A stretch of 48,562 nt of DNA from Myxococcota bacterium (GTDB lineage: Bacteria > Myxococcota_A > UBA796 > CAJQPC01): contig JAKLKD010000019.1 of the NCBI GenBank assembly GCA_023150845.1, positions 1 through 48,562 of the forward strand, given 5' to 3'. The notes beneath the pieces are model-generated. The model worked only from the letters and a program-made list of their open reading frames with translations. It was not told where the DNA came from and did no database searches. Numbering within the stretch: the first letter of the stretch is position 1; each line of letters starts with the position of its first letter. Shown in pieces: positions 282-14,432 of the stretch. Both the position numbers and the translations under genes were made by a program.

Positions 282-2834
282 TCAGCCCGCGGCCTCGGCC
301 TTGCCGACGCCTGGCGCGCAGCCCGGATCGTCGAGGTCGATGAGGCCATCCTCGTCGTTGTCGAGGGTGTCGAGGCACTCGCCGTCGGCGGACTCATCGG
401 CCAAGAAGCCATCCGGGACGGCGACGTAGCCCAGGGCCTCATTCACGTTCCAGCAGCCGGGGTCGGCGGCGTCGGTGAGGCCGTCGCCGTCGTTGTCGGC
501 GCCGTCGTAGCACTGCTTGGTCGCCGGGCGATCCTCGATGTCGTGGAAGGGCTCACTCTCTTTGATGCTCTGGCTGTACTCGCAGTCGGGGTCGAAGGCG
601 TCGGTGTAGCCGTCGCTGTCGTTGTCGAGGCCGTCGATGCAGTCGCCGCCGTAGCTGCGGGGCACCTCGGACTCGCCGTCCGCGCCGCTGCGCTGGCAGT
701 AGGGGTCGTCGGCGTCGGTGTCGCCGTGGCCGTCGTTGTCGAGGCCGTCGTTGCAGACCAGCTCGGAGAAGCCGTCATCCTCAGGGTCGGCGCCGGTCGT
801 GCAGGCCGGGTCGTCCCCGTCGATCCAGCCGTCGCTGTCGTTGTCGAGGCCGTCGGTGCACTGCCAGGCCGCGTCGTCCTCGCCCAGCTCGACGCCGAAG
901 GGGTCGGCGCACTCGCCGTCCTCCTCGTCGGTCCAGCCGTCGCCGTCGTTGTCGGCGCCGTCGCCGCAGTTCGTCTCGCCGTCGAGGCCGCTCTCGCAGT
1001 CGTCGTCGTCGTAGTCGACGAAGCCGTCGCCGTCGTTGTCGAGGCCGTCGGAGCAGGTGGCGCCGTCGAGGCCGTCTAAGGAGCCGTCCTCAACCTCACC
1101 GTCGCCGCCGCAGTCGGGGTCGAGGTCGTCGATCCAGCCGTCGCCGTCCTCGTCTTGGCAGTTGTCGCAGCTCGCGTTGTTGAAGGGGTTGTCCCACTCG
1201 ACGAAGGTGAAGTCGCCGCTGGAGTAGGAGAACACCAGGTCGCCGTAGAGCTGGCCCGCGTCGAGGCGGTACTCGGTCACGCGGTCGGCGGTGATGACGA
1301 GGTAGCCGAAGCCGACCAAGGTGGGGTCGCCGAAGGTGCAGATCTCGTTGCCGAAGGTGCCCTGGACGCAGCCGCCCGTGTCGAAGGTGACGTCGGGGAG
1401 CTGGTAGAGCACCTCGGCGGGCACCTCGACGACGCTGCGGCCGGTCTCGGGATCGACGGCGTAGCTGTCGGGGACGGTGATGGTCGCGCGGATCGGCGTG
1501 GAGTCGGCACCCAGCCAGCCGAGGCTCACGATGGTCAAGGTGATGCGCACGTTGGTGTCGACGGCGAGCACCTGGGGGTCATCGGAGTAGGTGACGCCGG
1601 ACGGGGTCCACTCCACCTTGATCGCCGGGGCGGCCGGGTCGAAGGGGCCATCGACGCCAGGGCAGGTCTCCAGGCCGAGCACCGCCCAGATGTCTTGGTA
1701 GGCCTCGTCATCGGGGGTCACGCCCTCGGTGATGAGCATCCGCACGGGCTCAGGCAGCACGAGCTCGGCGCCGTCGAGGCCCGTGCCTTCGGAGGCGATC
1801 TGCACCCGGGGGTGGCAGAGGGGATCCTCGCCGTCGACCTTGCCGTCGTCGTTGTTGTCGCGGCCGTCGCGGCAGTCCCGGGAGGCCGTGGACACCTTGC
1901 CGCCCTCGCCCGCGGGCACAAAGAAGGGCGCGCCGATGAGCCACTCGGCCTCGTAGTCGTTGGATTGGCTCTCTTGGTACTCGGCGATCTCACAGAAGCT
2001 GAGCTCGCCCTGGTTGTAGAGTCGGGTGTTCGGCGCGGTGCAGTCCTCGGCCTCGCTGAGCAGGTCGCCGTCGGCGTACAAGCTCACGGGCTCCAGGGTG
2101 TCCGTGCCGTTCCAGCTCCAGGCCCCCAAGGAGGAGAGGTCAGCGCACCACTCCTCACCGTCCATCACGGGGTTCACCAAGGAGAAGTTGGGCACGTTCT
2201 GCCGTAGATCGTCTACGCCCGAGGTGAAGAGCGTGTAGGCCGGGGCCGTGACCCCCCAGACGCCGGGGGAGAGGTCGGTGCCGGAGTAGAAGCCGATGTT
2301 TGGCGTGTGAACGCGGGGGAAGATGAAGTCGTAGAACGCCGCGTCGCCGGTGAGGCCCGTGTTCCCGATGTAGCTGATGTCTTCGCAGCCCACCCGGGCG
2401 TCGTCTACCGCCGCGCCGCCGTAGCAGGAGTAGTAGTAGTCGTTGACGTGGATGTACGAGGCCTCGCCGTCGTAGAGCTCGCCGACCTCGTAGGTGTAGA
2501 GGCCCTCGGCCACGGCCACGCCGCCTTCAGTGGCGACCTTCACGTCGACGGGGCCGCCCTCGATGGGGCCGTTCGGCACGATGAGGGAGATCTCGGCGTC
2601 GGAGACGGAGAGGATCTCGGCGTTCTGGGAGCCAAACTGCACGACGACGGCGGCGGGGTCGTCGCCGAAGCCGCTGCCCTGGAGCACGATCTCGGCGCCG
2701 CCGAGGTTGCCCAGGGTGGTGGACTCACCGCCGATGCCGCTGATCGTCGGGGGGTCGCCGTCGTAGTACGGGGGGCGCTCGCCTTGGTTGCAGGCGGCGA
2801 GGATCAGCAAGAGCGAAGGGAGGAGGGTGCGCAT
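282..2834 (-). CDS. IPT/TIG lipoprotein with DNDxDG repeats
   Basis: An 850-residue exported lipoprotein of unknown function. A short hydrophobic leader ends in the lipobox LAAC, so Cys15 should be lipidated. Residues about 28-116 resemble an IPT/TIG immunoglobulin-like fold (GSGFGDDPAAVVVQFG, ending in YTYEV). A long middle part has no recognised domain and one isolated repeat near 320-345. From about residue 552 to the end come eight more Cys-flanked, Asp-rich units of the type C-x-DGxDNDxDGxxDxxDPxC. Such units look like TSP3 or EF-hand-like calcium loops and are common in myxobacterial surface proteins. The start codon overlaps the stop of the upstream 520-residue lipoprotein gene (TGATG), so the two are translationally coupled at the end of a four-gene operon. 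Adhesion or scaffolding is an inference. Confidence 0.85.
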   Translation of the reverse strand: MRTLLPSLLLILAACNQGERPPYYDGDPPTISGIGGESTTLGNLGGAEIVLQGSGFGDDPAAVVVQFGSQNAEILSVSDAEISLIVPNGPIEGGPVDVKVATEGGVAVAEGLYTYEVGELYDGEASYIHVNDYYYSCYGGAAVDDARVGCEDISYIGNTGLTGDAAFYDFIFPRVHTPNIGFYSGTDLSPGVWGVTAPAYTLFTSGVDDLRQNVPNFSLVNPVMDGEEWCADLSSLGAWSWNGTDTLEPVSLYADGDLLSEAEDCTAPNTRLYNQGELSFCEIAEYQESQSNDYEAEWLIGAPFFVPAGEGGKVSTASRDCRDGRDNNDDGKVDGEDPLCHPRVQIASEGTGLDGAELVLPEPVRMLITEGVTPDDEAYQDIWAVLGLETCPGVDGPFDPAAPAIKVEWTPSGVTYSDDPQVLAVDTNVRITLTIVSLGWLGADSTPIRATITVPDSYAVDPETGRSVVEVPAEVLYQLPDVTFDTGGCVQGTFGNEICTFGDPTLVGFGYLVITADRVTEYRLDAGQLYGDLVFSYSSGDFTFVEWDNPFNNASCDNCQDEDGDGWIDDLDPDCGGDGEVEDGSLDGLDGATCSDGLDNDGDGFVDYDDDDCESGLDGETNCGDGADNDGDGWTDEEDGECADPFGVELGEDDAAWQCTDGLDNDSDGWIDGDDPACTTGADPEDDGFSELVCNDGLDNDGHGDTDADDPYCQRSGADGESEVPRSYGGDCIDGLDNDSDGYTDAFDPDCEYSQSIKESEPFHDIEDRPATKQCYDGADNDGDGLTDAADPGCWNVNEALGYVAVPDGFLADESADGECLDTLDNDEDGLIDLDDPGCAPGVGKAEAAG
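285..1177 (-). repeat. Tandem Asp-rich, Cys-bracketed repeat region (8 units)
   Basis: Eight degenerate units of roughly 30 codons encode the motif DGxDNDxDGxxDxxDPxC, with a ninth, separate copy near 1797-1877. At DNA level the units show as recurring GTCGTTGTCGAGGCCGTCG-like strings on the plus strand. This gives long, valine-rich open frames on the opposite strand that should not be read as genes. Conserved Asp and Asn positions fit calcium co-ordination; the paired cysteines may form a disulfide per unit. Confidence 0.85.
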
Positions 2835-13583: not shown

Positions 13584-14432
13584 ATGAGCCTAATCAGTCT
13601 GATGGCCCTCGGCGTGGCCCTCGCCGGAGACCTGACCCCTGCCGTCGAGGTGCGCGGCAACTTGACCGGCGCGCGGCTGGGCCTCTTGGGCAACGTGCGC
13701 GCCGGTGTGAAGGTCCCCCTGTGGGCGGATCCGGAGAGCACGCTCTTCGCGGATCCCTACCTCATCGCCCAGGCCGAGGCCTTCACGTCCCCGGCCTACG
13801 TGCGCCTCGGGGGCCGCGTCACCTTCGAGCCCATCGCCATCTTTCAGCTCCAGGCCTACGCCTTCCACACGAGCTACTTCGGCAACTTCCAGACCTTCAT
13901 CGGCTTCGACGACCCGCTGACCAGCTACGGCACGAACGACGACCTGGAGCAGTACGTCATCGACAACCCCGGCCGCCAAGGCAAAGGCACGGCGCTGAGC
14001 TGGGGCCTGCAGCCGACGCTCAAGGCGAAGGTCGGCCCGGTCCTCGTGCTCCTGAGCAGCGAGCTGAGCCACTGGGGCGCGACCTCTGATGTGCCCGGAG
14101 ACTACTGGTACGAGCGGGAGTATGAGCTGCTCGTCGGCCGGAACGACTTCACCCTGAACAACAACGGCGCCTTGCTCTACGAGTGGGACCCGAGCCAAGA
14201 CGACGGCTGGAAGCTGCGGGTGGGATCCTTGACCAACTGGCGCATGGCGCTCGGTGACACCGAGGACGAGGTGCTACGCACGGGGCTGATGGTGACCTGG
14301 ATCAGCCACGACGGAAAATGGACCCACAGCGGCCTCGTCATGCCCTACCTGCGGTCCAAGGGCTACAACGAGGGCCCCCCGTTCGCGGGCTACGTCGTGC
14401 GCTGGGCCCTGCCGACGCCGCGGAAGGGCTGA
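13584..14432 (+). CDS. Exported, probably outer-membrane, protein (282 aa)
   Basis: A 282-residue exported protein. GTG at 13581 and ATG at 13584 are adjacent possible starts behind GGAGGT; I take the ATG. A short leader (MSLISLMALGVALAG) is followed by beta-type segments such as YVRLGGRVTFEPIAIFQLQ and GYVVRWALPTPRKG. The repeated aromatic, alternating pattern suggests a small barrel, but the very C-terminus is Lys-Gly rather than an aromatic residue, which is less typical. It has its own putative promoter upstream and ends one base before the convergent methyltransferase gene. I do not recognise a family. Confidence 0.65.
   Translation: MSLISLMALGVALAGDLTPAVEVRGNLTGARLGLLGNVRAGVKVPLWADPESTLFADPYLIAQAEAFTSPAYVRLGGRVTFEPIAIFQLQAYAFHTSYFGNFQTFIGFDDPLTSYGTNDDLEQYVIDNPGRQGKGTALSWGLQPTLKAKVGPVLVLLSSELSHWGATSDVPGDYWYEREYELLVGRNDFTLNNNGALLYEWDPSQDDGWKLRVGSLTNWRMALGDTEDEVLRTGLMVTWISHDGKWTHSGLVMPYLRSKGYNEGPPFAGYVVRWALPTPRKG

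Follow-up and report, generated by a model that had tools for sequence, protein, structure and literature searches.

Members of the 5'-nucleotidase superfamily, which includes UshA and the ecto-5'-nucleotidase CD73, also hydrolyse other phospho-esters (UDP-sugars, NAD), and SoxB acts on thiosulfate. A 5'-nucleotidase domain is also present in YhcR of B. subtilis, which shares an OB region with the extracellular nucleases ExeM and NucH. In ExeM, this region is required for the nuclease activity and has been proposed to bind the substrate (PMC6085458). The table of outer-membrane lipoproteins of M. xanthus includes 5'-nucleotidase lipoproteins (PMC3222651), and a survey of activated-sludge genomes described large secretomes in the Myxococcota, several genomes of which encode multiple probable secreted nucleases (PMC11495043). 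A literature search for nucleotidase and Myxococcota gene clusters found nothing, and neither arm of the locus described here appears to have been studied before.

The window, that is the whole stretch of 48,562 nucleotides of Myxococcota DNA that was analysed, begins with a block of exported proteins. The eight reading frames that the initial annotation arranged divergently around 9008-9152 are all present where it placed them:

g1, 282-2834, minus strand: lipoprotein that combines a TIG domain with eight acidic double-disulfide (DxDxDG-like) repeats
g2, 2834-4396, minus strand: lipoprotein without a known family, seen in the window's class only
g3, 4409-7999, minus strand: zinc-metalloprotease-like domain, TolB-like propeller and probable C-terminal barrel
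g4, 8003-9007, minus strand: outer-membrane barrel of the FapF / Phenol_MetA_deg kind
divergent intergenic region, 9008-9152, no strand: separates the left arm (g1-g4) from the right arm (g5-g7)
g5, 9153-10844, plus strand: lipoprotein of the CD73/UshA 5'-nucleotidase superfamily, metal site intact
g6, 10844-11998, plus strand: lipoprotein with an N-terminal Ig-like domain and a putative C-terminal ExeM/NucH-type OB region
g7, 12014-13498, plus strand: porin-sized outer-membrane beta-barrel of a family absent from Pfam
g8, 13581-14432, plus strand: exported protein, barrel only putative, outside the conserved unit

The one-base overlaps at 2834 (g1/g2) and 10844 (g5/g6) are confirmed, and the remaining gaps are short (12, 3 and 15 bp). 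The leftward gene g4 starts at 9007, the point at which its orthologues also align. Export signals had been assigned to all eight genes, and a crude N-terminal hydrophobicity score indeed flags eight out of eight; in the adjoining genes on the right, among them methyltransferase, POR, HAD and RadA genes, the same score gives few such calls. The lipobox cysteine that follows the hydrophobic stretch is kept in the orthologues of g1, g2, g5 and g6 (for g1, orthologues bearing it were found in the window's order), and the signal peptide is kept in those of g3, g4 and g7.

The comparison with relatives shows that the block consists of two separable modules, each having its own distribution, which stand back-to-back in one class of the phylum. 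Many relatives keep seven of the eight genes side by side with their order unchanged, which argues that the clustering exceeds chance. Among 32 loci from relatives belonging to the window's order, g1-g4 occur together in nearly all of those that have complete contigs; in 22 of these loci g5-g6-g7 diverge from g1-g4, all three being present wherever the contig is long enough. The eighth gene, g8, was seen near g7 in only two of the fetched loci, G001 and G003, both from the window's family, and in G001, which is of the same genus, it lies 2.2 kb from g7 with other ORFs in between. Since g8 adjoins g7 in the window's family only, we place it outside the conserved unit. It matches no family, its C-terminus (...PTPRKG) is an atypical outer-membrane ending, and the barrel that had been attributed to it is unproven.

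The co-occurrence of the two arms was examined in 63 genomes of the order, counting as strong a match with E < 1e-60 for g4 and E < 1e-100 for g6. A single copy of g7 is present in 34 genomes and a strong g4 match in 44: both genes occur in 34, g4 alone in 10, neither in 19, and g7 is never found without g4. The chance of such nesting is about 3e-9 assuming independent genomes, but this value is an indication only, because the genomes are not independent. Strong g6 matches are found in the same genomes as g7, except in G020 (contig break). The contigs of G009 and G028 end just past g4, and we do not claim that these organisms kept the right arm and lost the left one. The left arm seems to be a self-contained module, as supported by diverged paralogous sets: in G019 the genes g1'-g2'-g3'-g4' form a second set that repeats the order of the arm, with no right arm beside it (L123:3469-10505), and G012 has a related g2'-g3'-g4' set, also diverged and without right arm (L122:8031-13016).

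It may be that the arms are adjacent by descent, with no functional link between them. This would fit the conservation, within the order, of the housekeeping genes g9-g12 on the far side of the right arm, which extends to loci lacking that arm; in those loci g4 adjoins g9, g10, g12 or other genes. Against this, the same divergent pair of arms is present in the five genomes from other orders of the class that have usable contigs (G064, G067, G068, G069 and G070), and g9-g12 were not found in these loci, so that passive synteny would not fully explain the pairing. We consider a mere frozen neighbourhood to be conceivable, and on the unlikely side.

As side observations on this neighbourhood, a gene for a methyltransferase with a Trm112-like zinc domain (14434-15483) comes immediately after the right arm in many relatives, and is also near the right arm in the genus that we label g9 (not to be confused with gene g9). 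The region 14614-19940, with a fused pyruvate:ferredoxin-oxidoreductase-type gene including the beta subunit, and HAD and NUDIX genes, is mostly kept in the order.

The two arms are not always together. In five genomes of genus g9, the roughly 6-11 kb upstream of the right arm contain no left arm, and in one genome of this genus, G050, the arms are on different contigs, the right arm being well inside its own. On the scale of the phylum, g7 is present in 127 of 379 genomes, and g2, which we used as a marker of the left arm, in 49 of them, all within the class. Outside the class, 28 of the 30 fetched loci contain g5-g6-g7 in this order on one strand and no left arm; in two of them g7 is duplicated. 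We disregard an isolated g3 score of 20 bits in L140 as negligible. All three genes are present in 62 of 73 g7 loci from outside the class (partly from the same genomes as the 30), with a median gap of 8 bp between g5 and g6 and many 4-bp overlaps. A second, named genome collection, which includes Labilithrix, Byssovorax and other Polyangiaceae, gives the same picture. Judging by the positions and N-termini of the neighbours, no recurrent partner of the right arm was recognised in 60-odd loci. The right arm is an ancient operon that has apparently not been described, and the left arm a clade-specific cassette that is paired with it, yet separable.

The initial annotation had proposed the joint conservation of the arms as a check. 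Such conservation is seen in the class (in the majority of the order's genomes, as well as in the five genomes of other orders despite their changed flanks). It breaks down in the rest of the phylum, where the right arm is autonomous and g2 was not found; in genus g9 the arms lie at different places. Separate arms with no co-occurrence, the situation that had been equated with a chance neighbourhood, are seen beyond the class but not within it. We reject a single operon or complex of eight genes, given that the right arm occurs by itself in other lineages and that g8 is confined to the family.

A few of the g7 loci call for comment. Tandem duplicates of g7 follow g6 in L147 and L154 (also in L200, L207, L215, L228 and L233), which suggests paired or specialised barrels. 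In L149 and L158, g7 homologues occur with no g5 and g6 nearby; they possibly form a separate barrel subfamily. Two public records whose titles give Klebsiella pneumoniae and Bifidobacterium breve (L161, L177) carry this Myxococcota locus; these metagenome bins have evidently been given wrong titles.

Regarding the function of the right arm, g5 has both domains of the 5'-nucleotidase superfamily, above the Pfam cut-offs (PF00149, 37.9 bits for a cut-off of 21.5; PF02872, 103 bits for a cut-off of 23.6), and matches 5'-nucleotidases of the PDB with E 1e-38. Like UshA and CD73 it has all the residues of the metal site: D57, H59, D112, N144, H145, H253, H276 and H278 (metal or catalytic) are conserved in an alignment of 121 sequences, with only 1-2 gaps as exceptions. 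It differs from them in being lipid-anchored, in sharing its operon with a putative OB lipoprotein and a barrel, and in scoring 133 bits against the NCBIfam UshA equivalog, under the curated cut-off of 600.

The OB region of g6 matches NF033681 weakly in the window (E 0.0012) and better in two homologues (1e-7 and 3e-6); three other homologues gave no match. The AlphaFold model of g6 is beta-rich (pLDDT 90), and a fold search with it returned only Ig-like matches, in the N-terminal part, so that the OB assignment rests on sequence. One g6 homologue matches Big_1 (E 0.003). In the case of g7, the barrel that had been proposed is borne out by the AlphaFold model (pLDDT 86, pTM 0.86), which is a porin-sized barrel whose closest folds in the PDB are LamB (TMq 0.53), AlgE and OmpF; it resembles these porins in overall fold but shares no sequence similarity with them, and TM-scores of about 0.5 indicate a fold class only. 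Profile searches of the PDB with g6 and g7, as with g2, gave no significant match.

The putative OB region of g6 is related to that of ExeM, NucH and YhcR, but the right arm has neither an EEP nor a thermonuclease domain, and the functions are on separate polypeptides, with a barrel in addition. No EEP domain was detected in g5-g7 by Pfam and NCBIfam profile searches, so these proteins do not qualify as nucleases of the ExeM/NucH kind, and there is no nuclease gene in the arm. Nor does the block resemble a utilisation locus of the SusC/D type: none of the eight genes matched a TonB receptor or the SusD family.

In all five loci from other orders of the class, an extra lipoprotein-sized gene is present between g6 and g7. 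Where it was read, also in two loci outside the class, its product is a lipoprotein that matches the OB domains of ExeM/NucH (E 2e-19 to 3e-9), being related, like the putative OB region of g6, to those of the nucleases. The domains are in tandem in L124:8044-9477, L131:5040-6461 and L133:11441-12892, and the copy in L127 also matches DUF5689. This gene occurs in other orders and in some relatives elsewhere in the phylum; it is absent from the window's order.

The most likely reading of the right arm, in which we have about even confidence, is a system for nucleotide scavenging at the outer membrane. In this mechanism, g6 would bind nucleic-acid fragments or nucleotides, the lipid-anchored g5 would take off the phosphate, and the g7 barrel would let the products through the outer membrane. 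The initial annotation had suggested a surface complex that digests polymers or nucleotides; this idea is not supported for eight genes as one complex, and is a reasonable reading of the right arm. Another hypothesis is that the right arm handles some other phosphorylated compound, such as UDP-sugars or flavin dinucleotides, or that g5 removes a signal. Enzymes of the UshA type are multifunctional, and the hydrolysis of FAD by the UshA of S. oneidensis (PMC8475336) counts in favor of this hypothesis. The presence of OB domains of the ExeM/NucH kind beside g5 speaks against it, and we find it doubtful.

As for the left arm, g1 has a TIG domain (PF01833, E 2e-9) and eight stretches that match the repeats of NF033662 (E 2e-43). 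No match to g2 was found in Pfam, NCBIfam or the PDB; one of its 22 orthologues matches SusE marginally (E 0.02). The motifs HEYAH and TEGGAEYW of g3 contain residues H158, E159, H162, E210 and E214, which are invariant in 23 orthologues, that is the HExxH motif and downstream glutamate ligand expected of a gluzincin-type zinc metalloprotease; we predict from this pattern that g3 is such an enzyme. Weak Pfam matches to M9 and Peptidase_MA_2 were also obtained. The propeller is clearly TolB-like (E 3e-21), but g3 is far under the cut-off of the NCBIfam equivalog for the TolB of Tol-Pal (71.9 bits for 343). About 470 residues probably form a barrel, judging from their length and from the C-terminal Trp. 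Thus, g3 has the HExxH and glutamate motif of Peptidase MA-type proteins and the propeller of TolB, but unlike either it fuses a protease, a propeller and a probable barrel.

That g4 is a barrel, as had been proposed, is supported by a match of the profile of its family to FapF (E 0.002) and by matches of 9 of 23 orthologues to PF13557; it resembles in this respect the functional-amyloid secretion pore FapF and the Phenol_MetA_deg barrels. A Fap amyloid exporter was considered on the basis of the FapF match and rejected, because no FapB or FapC subunit was matched among the eight genes in Pfam and NCBIfam; no other Fap gene was recognised in the block either. The left arm is probably a surface cassette that processes proteins at the outer membrane; it would be centred on g3, with g1 and g2 as lipoprotein partners and g4 as a second barrel.

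The intergenic region of the window was compared with 18 intergenic regions of relatives. No clear sigma-70 promoter is seen at 9008-9152 in the window. In the family f2, a leftward sigma-70-like TTGACA-17-TTCTAT is found 26-33 bp from g4, and the members with a wide gap have a separate rightward TTGCCT-15-TATAGA, 23 bp from g5. These separate promoter-like sites suggest that the arms can be transcribed independently, and a shared bidirectional promoter is not supported.

This bears on the hypothesis that the seven conserved genes form one surface apparatus, in which the protease would remove the proteins of nucleoprotein (from biofilm matrix or lysed prey) and the nucleotidase arm would harvest the nucleic acid. 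The strict association of g7 with g4 in the order (34 genomes versus 0, out of 63) and the persistence of the divergent layout in other orders, between different flanking genes, are in line with it. On the contrary, the left arm occurs without the right arm in 10 genomes, the arms are apart in genus g9, the right arm is alone across the phylum, and each arm has its own promoter-like site in several relatives, so that we consider this hypothesis unlikely. Its more elaborate version, a two-arm surface machine specific to one Myxococcota class that couples the class-specific protease cassette to the phylum-wide nucleotide-harvesting operon and dismantles nucleoprotein, is quite improbable.

We favor instead two modules that were paired divergently early in the history of the class and neither of which needs the other. 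The reason for the pairing is possibly that the digestion of lysed cells requires both activities; an apparatus shared by both arms is possible, and not required. A three-gene operon that is distributed across the phylum, whose genes often overlap and whose enzyme is fully conserved, points to a common and seemingly undescribed trait, for which we propose the harvest of nucleotides or nucleic-acid fragments at the outer membrane, by organisms noted for their predatory habit and their large secretomes. The right arm offers three testable proteins, two of them without a Pfam family, and the locus is a clean example of an old operon to which a clade has attached a new cassette of exported proteins.

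Last, we note that the G+C content of the window, near 0.70 elsewhere, falls to 0.61 at 40001-42000.
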